A DNA stretch of 37,348 nucleotides from a virus. Under the pieces are notes generated by a model. That model searched no databases. It worked only from the letters and a program-made list of their open reading frames with translations, and was not told the DNA's origin. A program made the translations under genes and the position numbers. Positions within the stretch are counted from its first letter, which is position 1, and each line of letters opens with the position of its first letter. The stretch lies in the IMG/VR virus record IMGVR_UViG_3300006810_000142, positions 1-37,348 of that record. The stretch is one strand, 5' to 3'. This document shows, in pieces, positions 6,181 to 36,049 of the stretch.

Positions 6181-6642
6181 ATGAATAAATATAAGAAAGT
6201 AAGATATAATCATTTATATGTAAGTTACTACGAGATGAAAAGAAGATGCTTTTCCAAGCATCGTCAAGAATATAAAGATTATGGGGGTAGAGGTATTAAA
6301 ATGCATAAAGAATGGAAAGTTAATTTTAAGTCTTTTGTAGACTACATAGAAGAATATTTAGGAGATAAGCCTAATAAAGATTTTACGATTGATAGGATCG
6401 ACAATCACGGAAATTATGAGCCAGGAAATGTACGTTGGGCTACTAAAAAAGAACAAGCTGTAAACAGAAGAATAAGGAAAGATGCTAATTTCTTATATTA
6501 TAAAACTATTAGATTTAGATTAAATGATTTAGCAAAAGCTTATAAGATAAATAGAAAAACATTATTGAATAGAATTATTAAACTAAATTGGCCTATAGAA
6601 AAAGCATTAAATACACCAGTAAGGCTAAAAGGAACAAAATGA
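6181..6642 (+). CDS. HNH homing endonuclease (phage type) with C-terminal HTH
   Basis: 153 residues. The N-terminal part has the phage HNH signature: YYEMKRRCFS, YGGRGI, then TIDRIDNHGNYEPGNVRWAT (metal-binding Asp/His/Asn residues). The C-terminal part (about 108-148) is a small DNA-binding helical domain ending PIEKALNTPV. Such enzymes cut DNA and spread their own gene. It is a diverged paralogue of the product of 9566-10018. It sits right after a terminator and overlaps the next gene by ATGA, so it has been inserted at an operon boundary. Confidence 0.8.
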   Translation: MNKYKKVRYNHLYVSYYEMKRRCFSKHRQEYKDYGGRGIKMHKEWKVNFKSFVDYIEEYLGDKPNKDFTIDRIDNHGNYEPGNVRWATKKEQAVNRRIRKDANFLYYKTIRFRLNDLAKAYKINRKTLLNRIIKLNWPIEKALNTPVRLKGTK

Positions 6643-6965
6643 CAAATAAAGAAAAGATACAAAAAATAATTAATGCGTACGCACGAAATGAGCATACAAT
6701 TGAATCAATTATAATTGAGATACTGCACTTCTTGAAAGATAAAGAAGCACAAGAAGCCCAGCAAGATGACGAGATTAAGGTTGGGGATGTGGTTTATTGG
6801 TTAGGTTATCGAAAAATTAGGAGGGGCAGGGTTGATGACATAAAAGCAAAAAATACTCTATATGTAGTAACAGAAAATGGAAATTATTGTGTTAAAAATG
6901 AAGAAGCATTTAAAACAGAAGAAGAATTGATAGAAAGTTTGAGGGGATGGGATGAAAATGAATAA
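6639..6965 (+). CDS. small protein with the EEELxxSLR domain
   Basis: 108 residues. A helical N-terminus is followed by one copy of the domain shared with 281-733 and 36828-37196: IKVGDVVYWLGYRKI, a beta-rich middle, then AFKTEEELIESLRGWD. The start at 6639 overlaps the HNH stop and has AAAGGA at 6627-6632. Function is unknown. Three loci of one family in a 37-kb genome suggest a modular adaptor or modifier role. Confidence 0.55.
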   Translation: MTNKEKIQKIINAYARNEHTIESIIIEILHFLKDKEAQEAQQDDEIKVGDVVYWLGYRKIRRGRVDDIKAKNTLYVVTENGNYCVKNEEAFKTEEELIESLRGWDENE

Positions 6966-7836
6966 ACTAATACTAGCATTAATAATTTTCGCAAGTTGTG
7001 GTGGTGGAGGTTCAAGCCAAGCACAGCCTTGTGGAGATGTCGATTGCCCAATAGGAATTAAGATGGTTCATATAAATTCAGAATTAAATTTTAATTTAAT
7101 AGATTCTGAAAAGATAATGAATGAAGCTATTAATTTTCTAAATACTAATACTACACTAACATTTAATTATGTTGGTGCTATTTCAATGGAAGACTTAAAC
7201 CCAGAAACTGCTACGTTAGAAAACTTTCTAAATAATAAAAAAAGATTTAGAGATTATGAAACCTTTTTCTGGGATAATCCAAATGTTGGAGGAAATTATA
7301 AGAATAGAGAGTTTACTATGATTATTGATAGACCTCTGATAGACAGCAACGGAATCAGGTATACAGCAGGGAGAGCTAAGATCTGTGCTTTATATGAACG
7401 TGGCAGCATCGGAGTTAGTTACGTAACACCTCTTGCCAATCCAAGACCGACATCAGCCAGTTACAAAAGACCATTTAGCGAGCTATTTAATAGAGCAGTA
7501 ACAGTAACAGCGCATGAGATTGGACATCTATCAGGAGCATATCATAAAGATAGTTGTCCGTTTTGCATTATGCACCCATCAGGTGGTCATGATGCTTTTG
7601 CTGAGGTGAATACATTTAAAGTCAGTGAAGAAAGTAACAACGAAATGGAAGTATGTGTTAGGCGTGAAACTAGACGTGCTATTATAAGTTGTAGAGATAG
7701 AACGAATAAAAGAAGAAAATTAAGAAGGTGTAAGAAAAGAAAAGGTGTTAGGCATGTGAGGTTAAAAGATGTTAAATTTGTAGGTGTTAGAAGTTTAGAA
7801 CCCAGCAATACAGCTAGTGATTTATTCGGAGATTAA
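6952..7836 (+). CDS. secreted metzincin-type zinc metalloprotease, lipoprotein
   Basis: 294 residues. The N-terminus (MKMNKLILALIIFASC) is a lipoprotein signal with lipobox Cys16, followed by a Gly/Ser linker. The zinc site is complete: HEIGHLSGAYH (His188, Glu189, His192, Gly195, His198) matches HExxHxxGxxH. It is followed by a C-P-F-C-I-M-H segment containing the Met-turn (Met207). The C-terminal third is extremely basic, with clusters of Arg/Lys and further cysteines. Matrixin-like and archaemetzincin-like proteins share parts of this pattern. Location is expected to be the cell envelope of the infected cell. Exclusion of other phages, surface remodelling or degradation of host proteins are all possible. 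It overlaps the upstream gene by 14 nt. Confidence 0.75.
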   Translation: MKMNKLILALIIFASCGGGGSSQAQPCGDVDCPIGIKMVHINSELNFNLIDSEKIMNEAINFLNTNTTLTFNYVGAISMEDLNPETATLENFLNNKKRFRDYETFFWDNPNVGGNYKNREFTMIIDRPLIDSNGIRYTAGRAKICALYERGSIGVSYVTPLANPRPTSASYKRPFSELFNRAVTVTAHEIGHLSGAYHKDSCPFCIMHPSGGHDAFAEVNTFKVSEESNNEMEVCVRRETRRAIISCRDRTNKRRKLRRCKKRKGVRHVRLKDVKFVGVRSLEPSNTASDLFGD

Positions 7837-9565: not shown

Positions 9566-10018
9566 TTAACGTAAACTCCCTACTGGCATTTTTAGTGCAT
9601 CTTGCATGCTGTAGCCGTATTTTTGTATTCTATCTCTCAAAGTATTATATTTTAGATTGTATTTTTTAGCCCAGTCGGCTATTGTTTTAGTCTGACCATC
9701 ATATGTGTACCTTCTATTAAAGCTGTTTCTGTTATTAGTTTGCACATCTTGAGTTACCCATCTGCAATTATTAGGTTCGTAATTACCACTAGGATTTATT
9801 CTATCAATAGAATGTTTATTACTTGGACGCTCCCCCATGTCGGCTATAAAGTTTCTAAAACCATTACCATCTGGCTCTAACCACCTACTACATATAACAA
9901 TGCCATTACCTCCATAATACTTAAACCTACTACTCCCCTTACAGTAGCATCTTGCACGCATGGATTTATATAATTTATAATCTTTATGCTTACTAACTAC
10001 ATTTATGGTTTTAGACAT
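9566..10018 (-). CDS. HNH homing endonuclease (phage type) with C-terminal HTH
   Basis: 150 residues. The hallmarks are YKSMRARCYC, YYGGNGI, ERPSNKHSIDRINPSGNYEP and CRWVT, followed by a C-terminal domain (YDGQTKTIADWAKKYNLKY … ALKMPVG) that probably binds DNA. Related to the product of 6181-6642, and both keep the SIDRI/TIDRI active-site region. It is inserted between a lipoprotein gene and the holin gene, overlapping the former by 16 nt, which splits a lysis-type block. Confidence 0.82.
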   Translation of the reverse strand: MSKTINVVSKHKDYKLYKSMRARCYCKGSSRFKYYGGNGIVICSRWLEPDGNGFRNFIADMGERPSNKHSIDRINPSGNYEPNNCRWVTQDVQTNNRNSFNRRYTYDGQTKTIADWAKKYNLKYNTLRDRIQKYGYSMQDALKMPVGSLR

Positions 10019-11374: not shown

Positions 11375-12187
11375 ATGAAACTATTAACTCCTGGAATATA
11401 CGACAATCTCTCATCTCAAGAATATCACAATTTACCATACGCAAGTAATTCAAAACTATCAGAATTAAAACGCAGTCCTAAACATTTAAAACATCTTTTA
11501 GATTATGGAAGTGAAAGTTCTTCCAGTTTCCTAATTGGCAGTGCAGTTCACACAGCAGTATTAGAACCTGAAAAATTCAGTGAAACCTACGGTATTTTAC
11601 CAGAAGGACATGGAAATAGTAAGGCAGTTAAAGAGGCTAGGATAGAATTGGCAGATAAATTTGGAGATAATCTACTCACCCACTCCCAAGTAAAACAGTG
11701 TGATAGAATTAGAGAGGCAGTGTATGAACATAAAAAAGCAAAGAAATTAATAGACCTTAAAAAGAACGTAGAGCTTAGTTTAATATGGGATGACCCTGAA
11801 ACAGACGTAAGATGCAAGGCAAGAATAGATTTAGTTTGCAAAAACGGAATAGTTGCAGACTTAAAAACTACTACAGACGCAAGTCAAAAAAAGTTCACCA
11901 GCAGTATTTTACAATATGGCTATTACAGACAGGCAGGTATGTATCTTAAAGCTTGTCAAGTTCTAGGAATCGAGGCACACAGTTTTGTCATCATAGCATG
12001 TGAAAAAACCAGCCCCTATGCTTGTGCCGTATACAGCTTGGACCCAGCCCTATTTAACATAGGATGGGATGAGATACGCCAGCAATTAAAGGTGTGGAAA
12101 AAATGTCAGGAAACTGGCAAGTGGCCAAGTTACAATAACGAAGATGTTGTAAATATAACTGCACCTGATTGGATGGTGCCTAATTAA
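11375..12187 (+). CDS. RecE/YqaJ-type PD-(D/E)XK exonuclease
   Basis: 270 residues with the nuclease core: an N-terminal Y-x-S-x-S-x-LSELKRSP helix, IGSAVHTAVLEP (His59), Glu133, Asp152, Asp162-x-Lys164 (IVADLKTTT) and the QxxxY motif (Gln186-Tyr190). These 5'-3' exonucleases resect double-stranded DNA ends so that an annealing protein can load. The next gene encodes a Rad52-like annealase, completing a Red-type pair. The start matches the family's usual N-terminus. No ribosome binding site is visible and the predicted transcript starts only about 2 nt upstream, so the mRNA may be leaderless. Confidence 0.75.
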   Translation: MKLLTPGIYDNLSSQEYHNLPYASNSKLSELKRSPKHLKHLLDYGSESSSSFLIGSAVHTAVLEPEKFSETYGILPEGHGNSKAVKEARIELADKFGDNLLTHSQVKQCDRIREAVYEHKKAKKLIDLKKNVELSLIWDDPETDVRCKARIDLVCKNGIVADLKTTTDASQKKFTSSILQYGYYRQAGMYLKACQVLGIEAHSFVIIACEKTSPYACAVYSLDPALFNIGWDEIRQQLKVWKKCQETGKWPSYNNEDVVNITAPDWMVPN

Positions 12188-12197
12188 TGGAGATGCT

Positions 12198-12866
12198 ATG
12201 TCAGAAAAAAAAGACACTAGAAATGTTTGGAAAGAACTTACAAAAGAGTTCCCTAAAGAGGCAATTAAGGAAGTTACGTTTGGAAGGCAATACACCAGCT
12301 TAGATGCCTATCATATTATCAGCAGATTAACATCCGTATTTGGCCTTTGTGGTGTTGGCTGGGGATTTGGACACCTTGAATTTAAAGAGCTGGAGAGCTC
12401 AGTAGTTTGCATAGGAAGCATTTGGTATCGTGACCCAGAATTTGAAGACCAAACTTGTCAGGTGGATGCAGTTGGAGATGGAACTATTGTAAGCAGTAAA
12501 AAAACCGGAATAAGAGATGTAGCAGGGGCATATAAGAAATCTCAGACCAATTTAATGAGTAAGGCTGCAAGTTATATAGGGGTGGGGTTGTCGATTTATC
12601 AAGGTAAAGGATTGGATGACCCTTACTTAGACAAGGCAGAAGTTGAAAATAAACAACAGGATGTGAAGGTTTATAAGTATGACATATCAGATTTACCAAA
12701 AGATAAACTCCCAGCAGTAAACGAGTTCTTAAAAAAGAATGGGGCTTATAGGATGGATGCAAATCCCAGCCAAGTAGTTTCATTTAAACCATTAAAAAAA
12801 TTGGAAAAATACCAAGTGGTAGACCTCGACTCTGTTGAAGATATTAACAAACTTCTAGAGGTGTAA
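12198..12866 (+). CDS. Rad52-like single-strand annealing protein
   Basis: 222 residues. The first 140 show the Rad52/Rad22-type pattern: YTSLDAYHIISRLTSVFG, GVGWGF, and later GIRDVAGAYKKSQTNLMSKAASYIGVGLSIY. It binds ssDNA as a ring and pairs complementary strands, working with the upstream exonuclease in phage recombination and concatemer formation. The C-terminal 70 residues are charged and lysine-rich. It lies 10 nt downstream of the exonuclease gene. Confidence 0.7.
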   Translation: MSEKKDTRNVWKELTKEFPKEAIKEVTFGRQYTSLDAYHIISRLTSVFGLCGVGWGFGHLEFKELESSVVCIGSIWYRDPEFEDQTCQVDAVGDGTIVSSKKTGIRDVAGAYKKSQTNLMSKAASYIGVGLSIYQGKGLDDPYLDKAEVENKQQDVKVYKYDISDLPKDKLPAVNEFLKKNGAYRMDANPSQVVSFKPLKKLEKYQVVDLDSVEDINKLLEV

Positions 12867-13150: not shown

Positions 13151-13335
13151 ACAGTAAGTATGTAAATGTAAAGATAAAATTAGAGGACAATATTAGAGCT
13201 ATAATGTACGCATTGTGCAAGGAAGAAGGTATATCCGTTAACATCTTTGTAGAACAATGTGTTAATGAGGTGGTCCGAGCAATAATCCAGGCTAAGGCAG
13301 ATTTAGAGGAACAGCAAAATGAGCAAGGAAAGTGA
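13147..13335 (+). CDS. small ribbon-helix-helix-like protein
   Basis: 62 residues. A short beta strand (YVNVKIKLED) is followed by two helices (NIRAIMYALCKEEGIS, VNIFVEQCVNEVVRAII), the layout of an Arc/MetJ-type RHH DNA-binding protein. It could regulate the operon or bind near the origin that lies in the next gene. The match is based on layout only. Confidence 0.45.
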   Translation: MNSKYVNVKIKLEDNIRAIMYALCKEEGISVNIFVEQCVNEVVRAIIQAKADLEEQQNEQGK

Positions 13336-14071
13336 TCTAGAAAAGGGGTTTATTATAATTCCTGCTTATATAGCAAAAAAGAAAAATCTTAATACGACGG
13401 ATAAATATATCTTTGGTCTTATATTTGGACTGTCCAGTAAAACAGGATTCTGCTGGGCAACCAATGAGTATATGACAGAGAATTGGGGAATCTCAATTAA
13501 GCAAATACAGCGTTCTATTTCTAAGTTAATAGACAACAAACTAGTAGGTCGAGAGATTGTAACATCTGAAAAAAATGGATGGAGAAAGGAGAGAAAACTC
13601 TGGATTGCCACACCCCCTCAGGGGGACCTCGGACATCCCCTAGAGGGCGCATGCCATACACCCTCAGGGTCGCATGCCATACCCCCTAGAGGTCGCATAG
13701 ATAATAAACCTTATAAAAAAGAAGATAGTAAAGTTAATAACAACACGTCTGATGACAAGCCCGAAGAATCTAATAGCTGTGTAAGGAGGGCGATAAGTAG
13801 AGAGTGGGAAGACCTAAAGTTTACCAAGGACGAAGCAATGAAAATTCGTAAGAAGTTTCTTGATAAGGACCTTGGTCAGGTAGACATAGATTTTGCAGTA
13901 TTACAATTAAGAATCTGGGCTGAGAATAATCCTAATAAGTGGAAGAAACGTAAATCTCCCTACTTGAATCTCATAGGTTGGCCCTTAGAAAGAGCAATTG
14001 AAAATAAAATTAAAAGCCTAAGGTTAGAAAGAGAATCTAATTATCTAGCTAAATCTAAAAAGGAGAACTAA
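13319..14071 (+). CDS. winged-helix replication initiator containing the origin
   Basis: 250 residues. The N-terminal domain (about 15-95) is a winged-helix HTH of the phage replication-protein type: LNTTDKYIFGLIFGLSS, WATNEYMTENWGISIKQIQRSISKLIDNKLV. A low-complexity Pro/Gly linker (about 99-122) is encoded by four 23-bp DNA iterons. A charged C-terminal domain (about 155-245) follows, likely for contact with the helicase or ATPase. This layout copies lambda O: an N-terminal origin-binding domain, the origin in the middle of the gene and a C-terminal partner domain. GAGGAA lies 7 nt upstream of the ATG, and it overlaps both neighbours. Confidence 0.7.
   Translation: MSKESDLEKGFIIIPAYIAKKKNLNTTDKYIFGLIFGLSSKTGFCWATNEYMTENWGISIKQIQRSISKLIDNKLVGREIVTSEKNGWRKERKLWIATPPQGDLGHPLEGACHTPSGSHAIPPRGRIDNKPYKKEDSKVNNNTSDDKPEESNSCVRRAISREWEDLKFTKDEAMKIRKKFLDKDLGQVDIDFAVLQLRIWAENNPNKWKKRKSPYLNLIGWPLERAIENKIKSLRLERESNYLAKSKKEN
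13613..13745. other. candidate replication origin: four 23-bp iterons plus AT-rich segment
   Basis: CCCT cores of small palindromes (CCCT-C-AGGG or CCCT-AG-AGGG) begin at 13615, 13638, 13661 and 13684, exactly 23 bp apart. Units 2-4 also share a CGCAT segment (CGCATGCCATAC in units 2 and 3). Because 23 is not a multiple of three, the encoded peptide is not repeated, so the repeat is conserved as DNA. Directly to the right lies an AT-rich stretch (about 13698-13745) suited to melting. Position inside the initiator gene matches lambdoid origins. Confidence 0.75.
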
Positions 14072-15009
14072 TGGTAGATGTAGTTAAAAGAATAAAACAA
14101 GGTTTCGAGGAAACTGAATACATAGTAGGAAAATGGTTAGCTAGAGGGGAGATGGTTTTAATCTTTGCTGATAGAGGGGTAGGTAAAACATACATAACCC
14201 TCTTACTAGCCCATTCCTTAGCCTGTGGCGTCGATTTTCTAGGTCATCCTACTAAGAGGTTGCGTATTATATATTTTGACGGTGAGATGGGTTCTCGAGC
14301 GATTTGTATAAGACTGATGAAAATTGATAATCGTCCTGATACAAAGACAGGTTTGGTCACTAATAGATTTTCTTCACATTCACATAATGAGTGTGATGGT
14401 AGTATCATGTGGAACCTATCAGACCCAGTCCATCAAAAGTGGTACGATAGAGAGATTGAAAAATCTCAGGCTGATGTCGTAATCATTGATAACCTTGCTA
14501 GTTGTTCAAGAAATATTAACTCAAAAGATAACGAATTTGACCAGTGGATGAGGATTGAACCTTGGGCAATCAAAAAAAGAGAACAGGGAATTAATGTGAT
14601 TTTTGTCCATCATTCAGGAAAATCAGGAACTCAAAGAGGAACTTCTCAAAAAGAGAACCCTTTAGATTACATGATTCATTTAAAAGAAAGTAGAATAAAG
14701 TCAACACCAGGCTATACTGGATTTGAAATGATATTTACAAAAACTAGAGATGTTCACAAAGATGATGTTCCAAGTATTTACGGAGAATTTACACTAGATG
14801 ACAATTCTTTTTATATCAATCATTCCAAACTTGAAGATAAAAAAGCTGAGGAAGCTCAAAGACTTATAGGCTCAGGTCTATCAAAGCCTGAGGTTGCAGA
14901 CAAACTTGGTCTTCCTAAATGGAAAGTTTCAGAACTCGCTGAGAAAGTTTTTACACCTGATGACACAGAGCATTGGCAAGAAGAAGATGATGAGGATAGG
15001 TACTTCTAA
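14071..15009 (+). CDS. RepA-like/AAA_25 ATPase (replicative helicase type)
   Basis: 312 residues with a RecA-like fold. Walker A is DRGVGKT (34-40). A YFDGEM strand follows at about 68-73, Walker B is ADVVIIDNLA (about 142-151), and VIFVHHSGKSG is a typical sensor motif of the RSF1010 RepA/AAA_25 group. These form hexameric ATPases that unwind DNA 5'-3'. The C-terminal end carries a small HTH-like segment (GLSKPEVADKLGLPKWKV). Its position directly after the initiator suggests it is the loaded helicase. The ATG overlaps the initiator stop. Confidence 0.75.
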   Translation: MVDVVKRIKQGFEETEYIVGKWLARGEMVLIFADRGVGKTYITLLLAHSLACGVDFLGHPTKRLRIIYFDGEMGSRAICIRLMKIDNRPDTKTGLVTNRFSSHSHNECDGSIMWNLSDPVHQKWYDREIEKSQADVVIIDNLASCSRNINSKDNEFDQWMRIEPWAIKKREQGINVIFVHHSGKSGTQRGTSQKENPLDYMIHLKESRIKSTPGYTGFEMIFTKTRDVHKDDVPSIYGEFTLDDNSFYINHSKLEDKKAEEAQRLIGSGLSKPEVADKLGLPKWKVSELAEKVFTPDDTEHWQEEDDEDRYF

Positions 15010-15371: not shown

Positions 15372-15961
15372 AACTTAAAGATAAACCCCATTGGTTATTA
15401 ATAGAAGAATATAAACAAGCCAGTAAAATGAAGCTGGAAGTAGACCAAAATAACGAAACCATCATCATTGAATTGTTTGGCGAAATCTCAAATATACCAG
15501 CAATTAAAAATAGAAAACAAATTATATACAATCATAAAACTAAAAAGAGAATCCCAGTCATTTCTAAAAGTGCAATCTGCAAACTATATGCTATGGACAA
15601 GCTTTACCAGGAACAACTGGCAGAAAAAAATATTAAATCGTTAAACTTTAAAAGCCATCCAATATTTGTCTATTTAATTTGTGGCAATAGAAACAGGGAT
15701 TTTGACCCAATTAACTGTATGGAAACAGTGTGTGATTGGTTAGAACCTTCTAATAAAAAACATGGAGGAAAAGAAAGAGGCTGGGGAATAGGTATCACTG
15801 AAGATGATAAACACATTACTTCCCTAGCTCTCCACTCTTGGCAAACTGAAAATCAAGTGGACCATTCAACAATTGTTATTAAAACTTGGAGAAGTGTTAA
15901 ACAAGATTGTTTTACTTTCATAAACAGCTTTTTAAAAGGAATTGAGAATGATAAGAATTGA
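15368..15961 (+). CDS. RusA-like Holliday junction resolvase
   Basis: 197 residues. The C-terminal half shows the RusA pattern: hydrophobic strand VYLICG, then NRDFDPINCMETVCDWLEP (Asp111, Asp113) and GIGITEDDKHITSL (Asp146-Asp147), matching the three catalytic aspartates of RusA. It would resolve branched DNA before packaging. An N-terminal region of about 80 residues is poorly matched. The frame starts at a TTG (15368) overlapping the upstream stop with GGAGG nearby; an ATG at 15428 (residue 21) is the alternative. Confidence 0.65.
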   Translation: MKLKDKPHWLLIEEYKQASKMKLEVDQNNETIIIELFGEISNIPAIKNRKQIIYNHKTKKRIPVISKSAICKLYAMDKLYQEQLAEKNIKSLNFKSHPIFVYLICGNRNRDFDPINCMETVCDWLEPSNKKHGGKERGWGIGITEDDKHITSLALHSWQTENQVDHSTIVIKTWRSVKQDCFTFINSFLKGIENDKN

Positions 15962-16253
15962 CAAAAAAATAATCATACACGAAACGTGTGCATACTTTGG
16001 AATACCTACTGGCAGTTTAAAATTCAAAGCAAGAGGTGACAAAACTCCCTCAAGAGCCAGGTATATTATCTGGTATTTTCTAAGAAGATACTCCCACTAC
16101 TCTTACAAAGAAATCGGTCGTGCTTTTGAAGTTTCTCATACCACCGTAGTTGGAGGATATAACGTAGTACAAAAAAAGTTAGACGAAGGAGATGAGGAAA
16201 TGAACCTGCAAGTGGATACAATTTATAAAAGGATGATGGCTTATGACGAATAA
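15948..16253 (+). CDS. stand-alone DnaA domain IV protein
   Basis: 101 residues consisting almost only of the DNA-binding domain of DnaA: an initial helix with YFGIP, K-x-R, RARYIIWYFLRRYS, then SYKEIGRAFEVSHTTVVGGYNVV. HTTV (64-67) is the DnaA-box recognition signature. The ATPase domain is absent. The ATG at 15948 is chosen over the upstream TTG because AAAGGA (15935-15940) is then 7 nt away. It could bind DnaA boxes to block or redirect host initiation, or assist at the phage origin. It overlaps the resolvase gene. Confidence 0.8.
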   Translation: MIRIDKKIIIHETCAYFGIPTGSLKFKARGDKTPSRARYIIWYFLRRYSHYSYKEIGRAFEVSHTTVVGGYNVVQKKLDEGDEEMNLQVDTIYKRMMAYDE

Positions 16254-19400: not shown

Positions 19401-21398
19401 ACTTTCTGTTTGCCCTAATCCTTTTTGTTTAGAGTTTATAGATTTGGTTAAATTCTCAATTTCAGCATCTATATTTGCAAGCTCTTCATTTAACCTACCA
19501 GCCTCACTGTCTACATCAGCCCTAGTTTTAATTTCACTTACAGAAGATGGCGTTCTTACATCCACTCCATCTAATTTTATAGGAGCTGTAGTTCCTTCTA
19601 CTAAAGAATTAAACAGTCTATCGTCTAATCTCTTTCTTCCAAAAGCATTTAAAAACTTTTTAGTAAAATCATTATCTGGAACAATCTGTTTATTGGTAGC
19701 TCTAAAAGCAAGCTCACCTTGACCACTTCTATATTGTGTAATGTCTTCACCATCAACTTTAATGGATTCCCCTGCTTCTAGAAGAACATCAACCATATCT
19801 TGTGTTAATAGTTTTCCTTTTTTAACAGGAGCGTCTTTGTTTACATTAGTTCCCTTCCCTAAAGAGTTTTCTGTTTTAACAAGGTCTAAAATTAAAGGGT
19901 CCTGATTTGTTACTTCATTAATTTTCCATTTATTAACAACCCCTTTAGGTTCACTGACTCTTGTTGTTTCATTTTCTTTATTCCCCTTTTCCACACCGAA
20001 AGATTTTTCTCTCCAACCTGTTTCAGCAGTTGTAGTTTGTAAATCAAGAGGCTCGGTTCTTGGATTTATTTTTCCAGTTGCAAGTTCTCCGATTCTATTT
20101 TTCTTAGATTGAGGAACGGTTTTTTGACTGGTAACTTCTCCGACGTTTTCGAAAGTTACATCTCTCTCACTCGCCATTTGAGAAATTCTATTTAAGAGGT
20201 CGGTCTTTTGATTTTCTAACGATTCAATTCTTGAAGATAGTTCTTGTTTTTGAGATTCTTCTAATTTAATTGATTCTGCTAGTTTGTATGTTCTAATATC
20301 TTTTTCAACACTATCCAAGTCTTTAACTAGTGTAACGTCATACATATCAGATATTGCTTGTTTGTATTGATTAGGGTCTATTTCAACTAGGTTTTCAATA
20401 CTTGCACCTGATTGTAAATTGTCTACAAATTCACTTACATTCTTTTGTTTTGCTTGGTCTGTAAAAACTTTTTGTGCAGTAGGAACTTCATAACCAGTAC
20501 CACCTTCAACCTCCATTTCCTTTTGCATTACAGTTGACTGAACTGATTCTTTTGGCCACTCAATTTCTTGTTGACTTTGCTCTTTTAAAATATCGGGAAT
20601 AGAATCGGCAATTTCTTTTTCTACTAGCTGAGATTTTCTTTGCTTCATTTTCCTAGTTGTAAAATCAATTGTTTTGCCAGTACCAACTTTTACTACGTCC
20701 AGTGTAGTTGGCATTACAGTTCCTTGTATGATTGACTGTTTAACTCTTCTCTTCCCTTCATCGAACATACTTCGACCCTCAAAGGGATTTACCTCAGCTA
20801 CGTCTTGTTCAATAAAATAATCCATTGGAGTTGAAACTATTGCTGCTAGAGTGTCTGCACCTGCTGATAAGACCACTCGTTTTCCGTATTTCATAGGAAG
20901 AGTTGCTGGGTACATACTTGCAGCATCTAATACAGTATTTCCTGCTGAACTTAAAACACTTCCTGCTAATGCTTTCCCATCGCTGGACCCTCTTGATTTT
21001 AAATCTGAATAAGATTGACCCATGTTTTTACCACCAAGAGTTCCAAATAATCCTACCGTTCCAATGCCAGGAATTGCTAGTGGAGCAAGATTAGTAACTC
21101 CCTCAAAAACTGTTCCTGCTGTTTCTGCTAGAAAACCACTGGGTTCATACATTTGATTTGCTCGATTAATTGCTTGTCTTGCAGTGTCATCTAACTGGTT
21201 TTCGATTCCCACCATTTCACCGAGGCCACCAAGGCCTTCCATGAAACTTAAACCTCCTTTACCAATTCCTTGCCAAATAGATTCAAGAACTCCTATTTTT
21301 TGCTTTTGAGGAATGTCTTGCCACTCGTCCTCTGAAATGTCTTGCCAATCATCTTGGTTGTTTGAACCAGTAGCTTGAATAGGGGTAGGAGTTGGCAT
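16449..21398 (-). CDS. giant virion/ejection-type protein (1649 residues)
   Basis: The N-terminus carries acidic W-Q-D-I repeats. Next is a hydrophobic Gly/Ala-rich region (about 75-200), a coiled-coil region (about 345-420, again 640-700), a long helical body, and near the C-terminus a hydrophobic GLMALGGASALPFVSWIM segment followed by PLxRFG-like ejection-protein sequence. Size, position at the end of the structural operon and hydrophobic stretches fit a large internal virion protein delivered with the DNA. I see no intact lysozyme motif. The frame begins at 21398, which lacks a ribosome binding site. The better start (21488, AGGT upstream) is separated from it by an in-frame TAG at 21450-21452. 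Confidence 0.6.
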   Translation of the reverse strand: MPTPTPIQATGSNNQDDWQDISEDEWQDIPQKQKIGVLESIWQGIGKGGLSFMEGLGGLGEMVGIENQLDDTARQAINRANQMYEPSGFLAETAGTVFEGVTNLAPLAIPGIGTVGLFGTLGGKNMGQSYSDLKSRGSSDGKALAGSVLSSAGNTVLDAASMYPATLPMKYGKRVVLSAGADTLAAIVSTPMDYFIEQDVAEVNPFEGRSMFDEGKRRVKQSIIQGTVMPTTLDVVKVGTGKTIDFTTRKMKQRKSQLVEKEIADSIPDILKEQSQQEIEWPKESVQSTVMQKEMEVEGGTGYEVPTAQKVFTDQAKQKNVSEFVDNLQSGASIENLVEIDPNQYKQAISDMYDVTLVKDLDSVEKDIRTYKLAESIKLEESQKQELSSRIESLENQKTDLLNRISQMASERDVTFENVGEVTSQKTVPQSKKNRIGELATGKINPRTEPLDLQTTTAETGWREKSFGVEKGNKENETTRVSEPKGVVNKWKINEVTNQDPLILDLVKTENSLGKGTNVNKDAPVKKGKLLTQDMVDVLLEAGESIKVDGEDITQYRSGQGELAFRATNKQIVPDNDFTKKFLNAFGRKRLDDRLFNSLVEGTTAPIKLDGVDVRTPSSVSEIKTRADVDSEAGRLNEELANIDAEIENLTKSINSKQKGLGQTESQIQAREANINFLKSTLEQTEAATPKSVNKIVKDLEGELAGKERNFVQRTFDKVADKLAIPRTIFEKLPETLRFHDTLNMREKAATLNQADLTDASKDYFNLPDKTRVDAAMAVIRESNKSGQKIIPTDGALSKMGLDQAEIKALRSWYKTADLALEIMKDAEISHIINTIDIPDARGLKGTPSKLRNEIDVAGGALMMEAGLQPKGLTPEQRLKVIEDAIEKTGELQANYPKDKGLRKRIELLESAKEYVDATRRIDVTQQMFDKMKEKGYVPFGREGDYEMRVLNEDGSTAIYSLFETAKERRIALRNLKKAGFQLNKDNLELTKIEKPSSLLYQDLPASARITFKKMQDVVDGKLPPQGFDQHLIEANLVPGYSKNFQNQIAGYIVGVSNVAARSKYDAGIKRTLNEIKAKYENNGNPNPKYKEAYEHSQKLFDYVNSNQWEGQNLRKLMAFNNLGFNIKSAAVGMTQNVMTTLPEIQHIYNQAGVSVGKRGARAIRQWGRGHRQALEYLANPKRFAKNNPELAKVINEGYKDGTISDASAKAAYGFGERKRTGQTAKDFDNLVNFSMGLFRHADVYQRLHSTITMYNVKKDISPKASFEELQKFASDKTQFDTQFDYSRLNRPVIARGAVGAPFTTFKTFGANILRSYRRYWQSGSYDALLSSFAGLMALGGASALPFVSWIMRSLESGGINPEEEARNLIEKSSIDKIIQGLPFDGIDEEFAKKAEKQIGEVLLKGLPNLVGVDLSGSVAAGEQAPFLGKGALPTIANFVMGPTLKELERPGIFMSTLEKGKQPFGERAYRAFGEGLAPEFLKKIIRADVLAKNEGLFTNRYGDTIPDPDNPEQPLTLSPYEQFVTGVGFMPSRVGQAYNKYQSVRTLKESSQKPPFTARLASAIKKDEMEGGSFYEQQVLKDIDRWNEENPENQWNGRGSEINRALKKLEDPYYSGVRKQLPKAIRGKADEMMEARTFKDLKPSGKNY

Positions 21399-21488
21399 TG
21401 CAACTTGCTGGGTTGGTATATCTTGCCATTCATCCTCTGAGATGTCTTTCTATTCATCTTCAGGTATGTCTTGCCAATCATCTGCCAT
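21399..21488 (-). other. upstream N-terminal codons with in-frame TAG
   Basis: Thirty codons precede the open part of the giant gene: ATG at 21488, MADDWQDIPEDE, then TAG (21450-21452), then KDISEDEWQDIPTQQVA leading into Met at 21398. The 8-residue unit W-[QK]-D-I-[PS]-E-D-E repeats, and the TAG stands exactly where the second unit should have Trp (TGG). A G-to-A change or a base-call error is the simplest explanation. TAG is a normal stop for other genes here. Confidence 0.7.
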
Positions 21489-31190: not shown

Positions 31191-33416
31191 TCAAAACTGA
31201 GGTCCTTGCATATCAAGGTTTTCCTCTTCGTTTGAAATCTGTGGGATTGATGGACCTTGTTCTTGTCCTTCCATTCCTGGCATCCCAATACCAGCTTCTT
31301 GCAATTTTTCAATATTAGCAATTGCAGTTTTTTGTATTTCCATATCTTTAGTAGCTTCTGCTTGTTGTGCTTCAGCCTGTTGTGCTTGTGCGTAGTAAGT
31401 TTGAATTTTCTTTTTAGTTTCTTCTGGTAAGTCAGCAAGCTCTAAGAAAATCTCAGGTGGAACTTGTATAGCTCCATTTGCTGCTAGGTCGCCAAGTAAA
31501 ACTAGAATACCCAATCTTGCAGTTGGACTGTATGCACTTTCAGCTACAACTACATCATATTGCATTGCATCAGCATTTGCCATTATTTCTGCAATTTCAT
31601 CTATAGTAAATTGAGTGGACGGTTGTCCATCTATTTGTTCTGGGTTGCTTGCAGATTCGCTGGAAACAATTCTAAACACTCTTTCTGGGGAGTAGTATTT
31701 ATTAATTAAACGAAACATAATACGACCAACTTGTTTCTTACTAAAGGCCATATTATCAAATAGAAATTCGTTTCCTCTAAGAGTTTGCTCGATTCTTTGC
31801 ATGAACATAGTACCCGATTCGTTTGCTCCGTTAGGGTCTACATGAATGTTCATAAACTCTCGAATATCTCCAATTGCCATTTCTAATAATTGAACAATCG
31901 CAACTGGAAATTGACCTGGGGTTTTCTCAACAGGAAGCCTGTTAATAGTATTAACTTTTTGTACAAAGCCTGGACGACCTGCATTTTTCTTAAAGTTATT
32001 CTCCTCTCCTTCTGGAAAAGTATCATCATCATAAAACCAACCAGTTCCACCAGCCATTCTATTTCCAATATCTATTGCTTGAGAACGACGATAGTTAACT
32101 TCTTTTTGTGCATCTATTACTGCACGAACTTTGCCCCAAAACCTGTTTCCTCTTTTCTTTGCATATACAGGAATTGTAAAGAAATCTGTTTCATCCGTAA
32201 TCTCATTTACAAGAACAACATTTGCACAAATATGAGTGACTTTAACTTTAGTGTTGATTTTCTTAATAACTCGAAAACCTTCTATTGTAGAAAACTTATT
32301 TGCATCTTTTTCACTCCAACCTTTTGCAAGTTCTACAAAATCTAAAGAAGGATTTACAATTACAAATTCAGGTTCGTAAACTTTTTCCTGACACTCAATT
32401 AATCTAAATTCTTTTTTCGCAACATCAACTAGGTCAACTCGCTCATCTCCCATTCCTATTGCAAGCTCAATAGTGTTATCTGATTTACCGTACTGGTCAT
32501 GCTGGAAAGTCACATGCTCTTTAGGTTTTTCCAATCCACCTTGAAAAAATGAAACGGCCTCGTAGTTAGATTCTATTTCCCCAGCTTTTTCTGGATACAT
32601 TTGTTTAAGCTTTGGAAGTGAATACATTTTATGCTTGCAAAGATATTCTGCATCACTGCCATCCTCTTTTTCGTGTGGCCCCATTGATACACACTCAGGA
32701 TTAAATCTTTCAATTACAACTTCACCTCTAATATCTTTTTCTGTAGAAACGTAAACATCATAAAAACCTCTACCTTGAATGTATTGGTCTAAGGCAACAA
32801 CGCTGTCTTCACGTTGAAACATACTTCTTTCTTGTATATGTTTTGCTATTAAGGAATATAAATCGGCAGTTCTTTGGTCGCCTTCTTCTAAAGGAAGGTA
32901 TTTAATATCGGTTCTTCTTTTTCTTTGATAGCCTGACAATTCATCTATGTGTTTTTCGATAAGATTAAAAGTAAGAGCAGCCCGATCGTTAGCAAGTAAA
33001 GTGCCACGAGTTGATTCATCCCATTGTTCTCCATTGTGGAATTTTTCAGCCTTCTCAGCATCTTTAATAGATTTTGACTCAAGTTCACGACTGGTCTTTA
33101 AAAGAGTGTGGACTCTATCAATAATGTCTTTATCTTTATCTTTTGATTTGTTTTCTTTTGGAGTGTAGGGAATGATTTCATGTGTATGCCCATCAATGGC
33201 AGCCGAAATATAAATTGCAGCCTCTTTACCTGGCTCAATTACATTACCAAGCTCATCAACTACTGGTTCGGTTGCAGGTTCAAATACAATCTGATGAGGT
33301 CCGTTGCCATCATCGCTTATAAAGCCTACTTGATTATCGAGGTCTAGATAAACAACATGTTCACTGGTTCCACCTGGAACTTCAGTTTTAGTTGTCGTAT
33401 ATAAAAAATCACTCAT
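31191..33416 (-). CDS. P22-type portal protein
   Basis: 741 residues, similar to P22 gp1 (725). The core starts with RELESKSIKDAEKAEKFHNGEQWDE, then LTFNLIEKHIDELSGYQRKRRTDIKYLP, DLYSLIAKHIQER and DQYIQGRGFYDVYV, which are typical of the family. The ring sits at one head vertex and is the channel for packaging and ejection. The N-terminal 90 residues are an extra segment before the core. The C-terminal 80 residues are Gln/Ala-rich. The start overlaps the terminase stop by ATGA. Confidence 0.8.
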   Translation of the reverse strand: MSDFLYTTTKTEVPGGTSEHVVYLDLDNQVGFISDDGNGPHQIVFEPATEPVVDELGNVIEPGKEAAIYISAAIDGHTHEIIPYTPKENKSKDKDKDIIDRVHTLLKTSRELESKSIKDAEKAEKFHNGEQWDESTRGTLLANDRAALTFNLIEKHIDELSGYQRKRRTDIKYLPLEEGDQRTADLYSLIAKHIQERSMFQREDSVVALDQYIQGRGFYDVYVSTEKDIRGEVVIERFNPECVSMGPHEKEDGSDAEYLCKHKMYSLPKLKQMYPEKAGEIESNYEAVSFFQGGLEKPKEHVTFQHDQYGKSDNTIELAIGMGDERVDLVDVAKKEFRLIECQEKVYEPEFVIVNPSLDFVELAKGWSEKDANKFSTIEGFRVIKKINTKVKVTHICANVVLVNEITDETDFFTIPVYAKKRGNRFWGKVRAVIDAQKEVNYRRSQAIDIGNRMAGGTGWFYDDDTFPEGEENNFKKNAGRPGFVQKVNTINRLPVEKTPGQFPVAIVQLLEMAIGDIREFMNIHVDPNGANESGTMFMQRIEQTLRGNEFLFDNMAFSKKQVGRIMFRLINKYYSPERVFRIVSSESASNPEQIDGQPSTQFTIDEIAEIMANADAMQYDVVVAESAYSPTARLGILVLLGDLAANGAIQVPPEIFLELADLPEETKKKIQTYYAQAQQAEAQQAEATKDMEIQKTAIANIEKLQEAGIGMPGMEGQEQGPSIPQISNEEENLDMQGPQF

Positions 33417-36049
33417 ACTATTATAAACCCATCTTCGTCAGGAACATTATTGACTTTTTGTTGGTAACGATGCCACCATTTATCTTGCTTTTCTGGATTC
33501 AACCTACGTTTACTAAACCTATAATCCTTTGTCATCTCAAAAGCATAGGCCAATGCATCCAGTCCATCATCTCTCCAATGAGGAAACTTTTGCATCTCTA
33601 AAGATAACCTTTCCCTATAAGCTAGAGGTATGGCTTCATTAACATGTATGCAACCATTGTTCAAAGGCCACTGGACATTCTGTAGTATTCTTGAATGTTT
33701 ATTTCTACCAGCAGGACTTAGGGTCATTAAAGTTTTGTCTTCTTTAGAAACGTAATATCCCTTAGCTCTTAAGGCATTACTGATATGAATTTCAAAAGTC
33801 ATAGCTCCAACTTTTTCAACTCCCACTGCCAGCATACGACCATTTCTGGCATAAATATCAACTACTTGCTTCATGGCATCAGCTTCATCAAAAACATCAA
33901 TTACCATATCTAAGATGTATAATTTACTGGCACCTAAATCGTTCATGTAAGGTTCCACTCCAAACACTATAATTGCCCAATCATCTCCCCTTCTATCCTT
34001 CCTTACACCTGCTGGGTCTATTGCCATAAACTTATACAAGTTCTTTGGAATTTCATGTGGAGGTGTTGTCAGAATAAAGTCGGAGTTTAATTTTTCCTCC
34101 CCTCTTGGAGTCGGGTCAAGTAGCTGTTGAGAGAAAAACGTAGTTAGGTTTCCTCTAAGCAAGTTCATCTTTTCTTCAGAAAGAAAGACTGGTTTTCCAC
34201 TTGGAGTACCGTCTTCTGTAGCTGGTTTAACTCTTGTGTGGTAAAGAAGATTGCCGTCTAAATCCTTTCTTTCCCTTAAATCTTGCAACAATCCATTATG
34301 AGAATAGGTGGTTCCAATAACACGATGCCTGTCACCATCCATACCAACGTTATGAGATAGGTCGAACATATACTTTAATTTCTCAATCATTTCAGGGGAG
34401 TTAACAAATTCTGGGGTTTCAACATCATCGTAAATTCGCTGGGTAAAATGCTTTCCTGTTGGCATACCCTCAACTAATCCCCATGCCTCTAAAGTAGCTT
34501 CCCTGTAGTAACCTTTTCTCTTAACAATTAATCCAGTATCCTCAGACCATTTAGGTGCTTCACTGCTGGGATTCATGTATAAAACATCTGGGAATATGTC
34601 TTTTAAAAAGAACGATTCCTCAAATAAGTATTTGATTTGTCTAAAGAAAGCTAGAGCTGGTTTTTGTGCGTAGGAAAATATACAAATTCTTTCTTCAGGA
34701 TTTCTTAATATGGATTGAATGGTTTCAGCACTCGTTATTATAGAACTGTTGTGAGTGGTAATTAAATTCTTACCTATTAAATAAAGACCGTCTTCACTAG
34801 CTACTTGAATACACCTTGTAGGAATTGTGTTAACTTTCTTAACTGATTTTATATACTTACACCTAAAAACTCTTTTTCCTTCTGGAACCTTTTCTTGTTT
34901 TCTAGAAAGAGAAAAAACCTCATCTTTTTTATAAGCCCTAAACCTAACATCGTAACTAATATAATTTTCACCTTTAATTTTCTTACTACGAACAGATAGT
35001 CTTGGTTGTAACCCCAAGCCCATTGCAAGCTCATGCACATTTTCAGCTAGAGTCTTGTTAATATTAGTAAAACTTGAAACCCCTCTACTATCTATTGTGC
35101 CATCAGTATCCATTAAGCCACGAAGCAGCTCTCGTCTATCATCTTCACTAGCGTATAAATATTCTTGTGGAATATGTTTATTATTTAATACCTCTAATTC
35201 TCTTAAGGTAGGTAGTATCTTATAAATATTCCATCTGTATAAAGCTGTATTTTTGCCAACTTTATATCCTAAGCTTTCAATCTTATTAATTATTTCATTA
35301 TCAGCAGTTGTGATGTTCCCACAGCAACTAGTACCATCTCCTAACCAAGCACCTAAAACGTAAGGTGATAGTCGGAGTTTTTTATGATTTGTAAATTGCA
35401 AAACTTCATTTAATTGCACGCCAAAACGATTGTCTGGTTTATGTAAATATTTAGATAATTCTTTAGATGATAAAGTTAATCCATCTCTATAATGCCTTTT
35501 GTTTTTTGTTCCAGATATTCTTTTTCTAGACTTTTTTAAAACTGTCCAAAGGTGATTGTCACTAGTAGTTACCTTACTTCCGTCAGTAAATTCCACCTCA
35601 AAACATTCTGTATTATCAAACACTTCAGAGAGTGCGATAACTTTATTAGGTTGACCGTTAGGGTGAAAAACTTCATCTCCAACCTCTAATTCTCCATGCT
35701 TTTTCCAACCTCCTGTCGTTAAAACTGGATAGTTATAATCTACTGCCTTCCCATGCTCCCTAGCCCATAAATCTAAGGTTTGAGTGGAGGGTCCATGCTG
35801 AACTTCGTGACATGCCTCAATCCAAAAAGGATGGTTCGCTATTGGGATTTTTAATACGAAATAAGTAACAAAAAACAGGTCGTTTAGTACCAAGTTTCGC
35901 CACTTGGCTCTCATATATTCACTGTCTTTTTTATTCTTTAGAATATCCCTCAGTTCTTCTGCGTAATTGTGAGAATACTTTTGGCCAGGAATTGGTGTAA
36001 ACTCCATGCCGTTAATTTCAAAAGTAATAGGTTCTATCTCGTATATCAC
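33413..36049 (-). CDS. terminase large subunit with intein (extein about 545 residues)
   Basis: 878 codons. The extein has a Walker A motif REHGK|SSI interrupted after Lys101, a Walker B RIYDDVE (about 538-544) and a C-terminal RNase H-like nuclease with FMAIDPAG (Asp678) and WRDDGLDALAYA (Asp827/828/831). It is the ATP motor that pumps DNA into the head and cuts it. The intein is encoded by residues 102-434; splicing restores REHGKSSI. There is no terminase small-subunit gene directly upstream, which is unusual. An RNA terminator on the opposite strand lies before the gene. Confidence 0.85.
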   Translation of the reverse strand: MIYEIEPITFEINGMEFTPIPGQKYSHNYAEELRDILKNKKDSEYMRAKWRNLVLNDLFFVTYFVLKIPIANHPFWIEACHEVQHGPSTQTLDLWAREHGKAVDYNYPVLTTGGWKKHGELEVGDEVFHPNGQPNKVIALSEVFDNTECFEVEFTDGSKVTTSDNHLWTVLKKSRKRISGTKNKRHYRDGLTLSSKELSKYLHKPDNRFGVQLNEVLQFTNHKKLRLSPYVLGAWLGDGTSCCGNITTADNEIINKIESLGYKVGKNTALYRWNIYKILPTLRELEVLNNKHIPQEYLYASEDDRRELLRGLMDTDGTIDSRGVSSFTNINKTLAENVHELAMGLGLQPRLSVRSKKIKGENYISYDVRFRAYKKDEVFSLSRKQEKVPEGKRVFRCKYIKSVKKVNTIPTRCIQVASEDGLYLIGKNLITTHNSSIITSAETIQSILRNPEERICIFSYAQKPALAFFRQIKYLFEESFFLKDIFPDVLYMNPSSEAPKWSEDTGLIVKRKGYYREATLEAWGLVEGMPTGKHFTQRIYDDVETPEFVNSPEMIEKLKYMFDLSHNVGMDGDRHRVIGTTYSHNGLLQDLRERKDLDGNLLYHTRVKPATEDGTPSGKPVFLSEEKMNLLRGNLTTFFSQQLLDPTPRGEEKLNSDFILTTPPHEIPKNLYKFMAIDPAGVRKDRRGDDWAIIVFGVEPYMNDLGASKLYILDMVIDVFDEADAMKQVVDIYARNGRMLAVGVEKVGAMTFEIHISNALRAKGYYVSKEDKTLMTLSPAGRNKHSRILQNVQWPLNNGCIHVNEAIPLAYRERLSLEMQKFPHWRDDGLDALAYAFEMTKDYRFSKRRLNPEKQDKWWHRYQQKVNNVPDEDGFIIV
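34748..35746 (-). mobile_element. class 3 intein with LAGLIDADG homing endonuclease in the terminase P-loop
   Basis: 333 residues (Ala102-Asn434). The first block is YPVLTTGGWKKHGELEVGDEV. Position 1 is Ala, not Cys or Ser. The class 3 marker residues are all present: Trp168 (SDNHLW), Cys413 (TRCIQV) and Thr432 before His433-Asn434, with Ser435 as +1. The endonuclease domain holds two LAGLIDADG-type motifs, VLGAWLGDG (231-239) and LRGLMDTDG (309-317), with aspartates intact. Class 3 inteins start splicing at the internal Cys. Endonuclease and splicing parts both look functional. Confidence 0.85.

Follow-up and report, generated by a model that had tools for sequence, protein, structure and literature searches.

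A predicted replication origin of four 23-bp iterons inside the HTH_36-type initiator gene of a phage

Replication origins that lie inside the gene of their own initiator are already known from phages and plasmids. The O protein of phage lambda binds the iterons of ori-lambda (PMC7466680). The lambda gene encodes an N-terminal DNA-binding domain, carries four iterons in its middle which are followed by an AT-rich tract, and has the helicase loader gene P as its partner. The lactococcal replisome organisers ORF13 of TP901-1 and Rep of Tuc2009 bind repeats within their own genes and these repeats act as ori (PMC8965321). In the staphylococcal plasmid pSK41 the central origin boxes of the rep gene, which codes for a RepA_N initiator, encode a dispensable linker, and the chimera pPR9 replicates with an HTH_36 (pfam13730) N-terminal domain that was swapped together with the origin segment (PMC5703833). 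RepA-type hexameric 5'-3' helicases that act together with an origin-melting initiator are represented by RSF1010 (RepC/RepA/oriV) and by GP46 of the 936-group phage F13, a member of the RepA cluster with tested 5'-3' helicase activity (PMC8965321).

We analyzed viral DNA of 37,348 nucleotides (positions 1 to 37,348 of the IMG/VR record IMGVR_UViG_3300006810_000142, here referred to as the window). The segment 13606-13744 of the window is very probably a replication origin located inside the initiator gene, with iterons that are predicted to be bound by the encoded protein. The features of the locus are:

13319-14071 (+): replication initiator gene, 250 aa (HTH_36, PHROG families and viral fold matches)
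13346-13609 (+): N-terminal winged helix, residues 10-97, predicted iteron-binding domain (AlphaFold2, fold matches)
13606-13628 (+): iteron 1, TGCCACACCCCCTCAGGGGGACC, core from 13615
13629-13651 (+): iteron 2, TCGGACATCCCCTAGAGGGCGCA, core from 13638
13652-13674 (+): iteron 3, TGCCATACACCCTCAGGGTCGCA, core from 13661 (Tandem Repeats Finder)
13675-13697 (+): iteron 4, TGCCATACCCCCTAGAGGTCGCA, core from 13684 (Tandem Repeats Finder)
13625-13822 (+): disordered linker, residues 103-168 (AlphaFold2 pLDDT below 50)
13698-13744 (+): AT-rich tract, candidate DNA unwinding element (19% GC; the 50 nt after the arrays of relatives are low in GC as well)
13775-14065 (+): C-terminal helical part (model helices 153-249), presumed helicase- or loader-recruiting region
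14071-15009 (+): RepA-type (SF4, RecA-fold) ATPase, likely replicative helicase (AAA_25, profile matches)

Four CCCT-centred units with a constant 23-bp period, followed by an AT-rich stretch, had been described in a sequence-only reading of the window. The coordinates of the cores were exact, and Tandem Repeats Finder ranked the array first in the window, with a score of 92. However, the boundaries of the four 23-bp units are better placed at 13606-13697 than at the CCCT cores. Units 3 and 4 are the most alike (TGCCATACACCCTCAGGGTCGCA / TGCCATACCCCCTAGAGGTCGCA). The description of the units as palindromic was accurate for units 1 and 3 only, which carry a perfect odd-centred palindrome at the core (CCCCCTCAGGGGG, ACCCTCAGGGT); the right arm of units 2 and 4 is displaced by 1 base, so that the arms stand one base wider apart. 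The two-core pattern CCCTNRRGG-N14-CCCTNRRGG occurred three times in the window, each time within the array, and was found in 0 of 100 shuffles. At a lag of 23 the self-identity of the array was 45/69, compared to a maximum of 42 when the whole window was simulated 100 times with a Markov model. The array has a GC content of 65% (top 0.01% of all 92-bp windows), compared to about 36% for the phage. The AT-rich stretch could be located directly 3' of the iterons, where the 47 bp from 13698 to 13744 contain 19% GC (lowest 2.2% of all 47-bp windows).

Two further repeats of the window are mentioned here. Around position 1160 a lag-51 self-similarity of 45/69 was observed as well, equal to the iterons by that measure. 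A 24-bp tandem repeat at 21415-21483 lies at the 5' end of, or just upstream of, the minus-strand gene for a 1649-aa virion protein (start at 21398); its spacing is similar to that of the iterons, but place and sequence differ.

The initiator matched the Pfam family HTH_36 (PF13730) with an E-value of 6e-9 and 36 bits (cut-off 25), and PHROG replication initiation families with an E-value of 2e-14. In the AlphaFold2 model, which was based on an alignment of 68 sequences, the block means of the pLDDT were 93-98 for residues 11-80 and 80-87 for residues 81-100. The N-terminal winged helix postulated from the sequence is thus borne out by family match and model alike. The closest solved folds were the plasmid initiator entries 4pql, 4pt7 and 5kbj (the latter a Rep-DNA entry) and the N-terminal domain of DnaD; among the best viral fold matches were replisome organisers and a lambda GpO N-terminal protein. 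Even though the fold resembles plasmid initiator structures, a Pfam match of the initiator to PF06970 (RepA_N) was absent. The domain order in the model is winged helix, disordered linker and helical C-terminus, as expected. According to this model, most of the iteron array and the whole AT-rich tract encode the disordered part. Since the peptide of the linker is disordered and tolerant, the DNA that encodes it could evolve freely as an array of binding sites.

A recombination module is located beside the candidate origin (11375-12866). It contains a RecE-type exonuclease on the plus strand just upstream of the initiator (PHROG exonuclease VIII, E 1e-74), and the ORF that follows the exonuclease also matches a PHROG exonuclease family and is possibly an annealing protein.

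The designation lambda-like, which the sequence-only reading had used, is suitable for layout and mechanism. As in lambda, four iterons within the initiator gene are followed by an AT-rich tract; the lambda iterons have a similar spacing, with starts 20, 24 and 23 bp apart, and their arms TCCCT/AGGGA resemble the CCCT/AGGG of the window. However, lambda O belongs to PF04492 (E 6e-36), while the initiator of the window is an HTH_36 protein for which a Pfam match to PF04492 (Phage_rep_O) was absent. Furthermore, the partner gene encodes an AAA_25/RepA-type ATPase and not the loader P. By analogy the arrangement would work like lambda O/ori, but the protein is not a member of the lambda O family.

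Closer precedents are the HTH_36 replisome organisers and pSK41/pPR9. TP901-1 ORF13 and Tuc2009 Rep share with the window the HTH_36 N-terminal domain, for which ORF13 scored just under the cut-off (E 2e-5), and the repeats in their own gene. They differ in their repeat sequence and in a C-terminal DnaB_2 domain, which is absent in the window protein, and a RepA-type ATPase is not adjacent there. The pSK41 initiator and pPR9 share the winged-helix N-terminal domain and the origin boxes in the middle of the rep gene, but these are plasmids with a pSK41-type C-terminal domain that use the host helicase. With RSF1010 and F13 the window has the RepA-type helicase in common, as far as can be judged from profile matches of its ATPase; the origin of RSF1010 is not known to be located inside the initiator gene. 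With its winged helix and with tandem repeats between the N- and C-terminal parts, the window initiator appears to fit the HTH_36-type initiators with an in-gene origin (TP901-1, Tuc2009, pPR9).

The RepA-type ATPase that had been noticed behind the initiator gene was recovered as such by an AAA_25 match in Pfam (E 2e-23). A profile of five sequences, namely the window ATPase and four phage relatives, matched RSF1010 RepA (1g8y) with an E-value of 3.6e-14 and DnaB with an E-value of 1e-5; a CBASS-associated ATPase from locus L189 had been excluded from this profile. The protein shows the RepA-like RecA-fold core with a Walker A motif (ADRGVGKT) and a Walker B motif (VVIIDN), and judged from these matches it is likely the replicative helicase. 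A single-chain fold prediction without alignment was too poor for use (pLDDT 38). By tblastn, homologues were found in 936-group phages, with an identity to GP46-type proteins of only about 23%. Close relatives were not found in a single-protein scan of the collection viral_contigs, and a homologue was not detectable among the ORFs of the other collected loci. Altogether 83 downstream genes were scanned, that of the window and 82 beside relatives. Because 37 of these match DnaB and 10 match IstB/DnaC-type loaders, the partner of the initiator is exchangeable.

The replication operon ends with a gene for a stand-alone DnaA domain IV protein (15942-16253 (+), Bac_DnaA_C, E 1.5e-12), which could be a DnaA decoy or an accessory origin factor. 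DnaA boxes (TTATNCACA) were absent from the whole window.

In the remaining part of the window, the terminase large subunit (33413-36049 (-)) is interrupted by an intein-like insert with a LAGLIDADG homing endonuclease domain. Two similar small ORFs at 6181-6642 (+) and 9566-10018 (-) look by eye like homing endonucleases of the HNH/AP2 type, and the ORF at 6952-7836 (+) is a putative lipoprotein in which the zinc metalloprotease motif HEIGHLSGAYH was seen by eye. Matches to Rfam and to tRNAs were not found in the window. A switch of the GC skew near 13.6 kb, which the sequence-only reading had proposed to look for, was not seen; the skew follows the gene strand.

To characterize the arrays in relatives, viral and bacterial contigs were scanned with the conserved motifs of the winged helix, which gave 160 loci that were not chosen for repeats. 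From these, 116 non-redundant initiators were examined, and a repeat was called when adjacent copies agreed at 16/18 or better. Tandem repeats of 21-30 bp were present in the linker of 70 of the 116 relatives, but in none of the 116 N-terminal segments and in only one of 81 C-terminal segments. The in-gene arrangement is, as these sequences indicate, widespread in the HTH_36 initiator family. The periods were 24 bp (37 relatives), 22 bp (15), 23 bp (13), 21 bp (3), 26 bp (1) and 30 bp (1). The proposed conservation of the 23-bp period among related genes was therefore found only in part: a linker repeat is common, but exactly 23 bp is not kept by most relatives, since 24, 22 and 23 bp are all common periods. 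A loss of periodicity, which the sequence-only reading had named as an argument against it, was not seen in most of the 116 relatives. The strict repeat threshold was missed by about 40% of the first relative set. In a second set, retrieved with different queries and restricted to initiators that share no more than 85% identity with those of the first, arrays were found in 33 of 38 initiators with periods of 24, 22 and 23 bp only. The repeat sequences of the relatives vary widely and yet are dyad-symmetric, with arms of at least 6 in 51% compared to 8% of shuffles. The 50 nt after the arrays had an average GC content of 25%, compared to 39% for the gene.

A single-protein scan of viral_contigs with the initiator did not reveal close relatives, and the exact iteron consensus had 0 matches there. 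The three-core 23-bp pattern was found in 8 contigs of this collection, but only in L003 and L009 was the array located within an initiator-like gene. These two are rated as probable and not as certain because the Pfam matches were weak (L009) or absent (L003). The other 6 contigs had no initiator gene around the repeat. The viral contigs L002 and L007 carry intergenic 23-bp arrays of the CACCATCATTCCCCTAGAGGGG type beside further short tandem repeats; spacing and core are as in the iterons, and no initiator gene was found around them.

Iterons that are read by the encoded winged helix are expected to follow the contact residues of this domain in their sequence. For 53 initiators the partial correlation with iteron similarity was 0.24 for the recognition helix and 0.25 for the wing (0 of 2000 permutations each), compared to -0.04, -0.04 and -0.12 for the other three segments. 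The partial correlation removes the overall similarity of the domain but corrects for shared ancestry only in part. Within the recognition helix of the first set, exposed positions reached 0.26 (0/300) and buried positions 0.05 (67/300); the strongest single positions were 89, 65, 96, 25 and 61. In the second set the exposed helix positions reached 0.27-0.30 (0/1000 at three word lengths), the buried ones -0.06 to -0.07, and the wing was weaker with 0.13-0.14 (8-25/1000). Positions were classed as exposed or buried from the heptads of the modelled helix rather than from the structure of a complex. The window itself is one data point in this analysis. The co-variation might also be due to helix 3 and the wing lying close to the linker, but the contrast between exposed and buried positions of the same helix argues against this. 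A half-site rule for SR and SK had been seen post hoc in the first set. In the second set SK went with TTRAAG in 4 of 7 cases, compared to 0 of 11 for SR, and SR went weakly with TTGAC (2/11). The co-variation thus supports initiator-iteron binding statistically, at the level of the family. Together, the linker repeats of the relatives and the co-variation provide independent support for a predicted binding of the initiator to iterons within its own gene.

Repeats that are bound by the initiator might mainly serve to autoregulate its operon, in which case the true origin would lie at another site. The co-variation points to binding and not to replication, and in iteron plasmids the repeats often serve both as origin and in autoregulation. 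We nevertheless regard this explanation as unlikely: the sites are located about 300 nt inside the gene and not at a promoter, an AT-rich tract follows the arrays in most relatives, and the same placement is an origin in TP901-1/Tuc2009, pSK41 and lambda. That the array arose recently by slippage or as a minisatellite expansion and has no function is very improbable. The linker is disordered in the model and tolerant, and tandem arrays are easily formed; however, divergent relatives carry unrelated repeats with the same 22-24 bp spacing at the same place while the control segments lack them, and the co-variation with the contacts of the recognition helix disfavours this explanation as well.

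As 23 cannot be divided by 3, the four cores have no common codon frame, and the peptide encoded by the array (IATPPQGDLGHPLEGACHTPSGSHAIPPRGRID) does not repeat. In the 99-nt coding segment 46 of 76 positions matched at a lag of 23, compared to a mean of 26.6 and a maximum of 41 in 20,000 synonymous recodings, none of which reached 46. The out-of-frame period, the non-repeating peptide and the recoding test together show that selection acts on the DNA, as had been argued from the period before. A functional repeat at the peptide level, e.g. a proline-rich interaction motif, is hardly credible as the reason for the array in spite of the 24-bp arrays of many relatives, which are in frame, since the window array fits it neither in frame nor in peptide, the recoding test disfavours it, 28 of the 70 relatives have periods of 22 or 23 bp, and the ori-encoded peptide is dispensable in pSK41 (PMC5703833).

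For an origin inside the initiator gene the following course is conceivable. The N-terminal winged helix of the initiator would bind the four 23-bp iterons in the DNA of its own linker, as the co-variation in the family suggests. Binding is presumably co-operative, and several initiators on the 92-bp GC-rich array would strain and open the adjoining AT-rich tract, as in the models for lambda and plasmids. The C-terminal part may then help to place the RepA-type ATPase on the opened strand as replicative helicase. We tentatively propose that an HTH_36-type in-gene iteron origin here hands over directly to a RepA-type helicase of the phage, with neither host DnaB nor a loader involved.

The origins of most sequenced and metagenomic phages are unmapped. 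For phages with HTH_36-type initiators the origin would be locatable from sequence alone, as a linker array of 22-24 bp period that is followed by an AT-rich tract. In our view the family-wide co-variation is a more interesting result than the new phage example, since the recognition code is directly testable. Data from which such a code for winged helices could be derived are naturally given by the co-variation of the iteron sequence with the helix-3 positions 61, 64 and 65 and the wing position 89 (window numbering). Iteron and recognition helix appear to co-evolve inside a single gene, and therefore each such gene would represent a self-contained, readable protein-DNA specificity pair.
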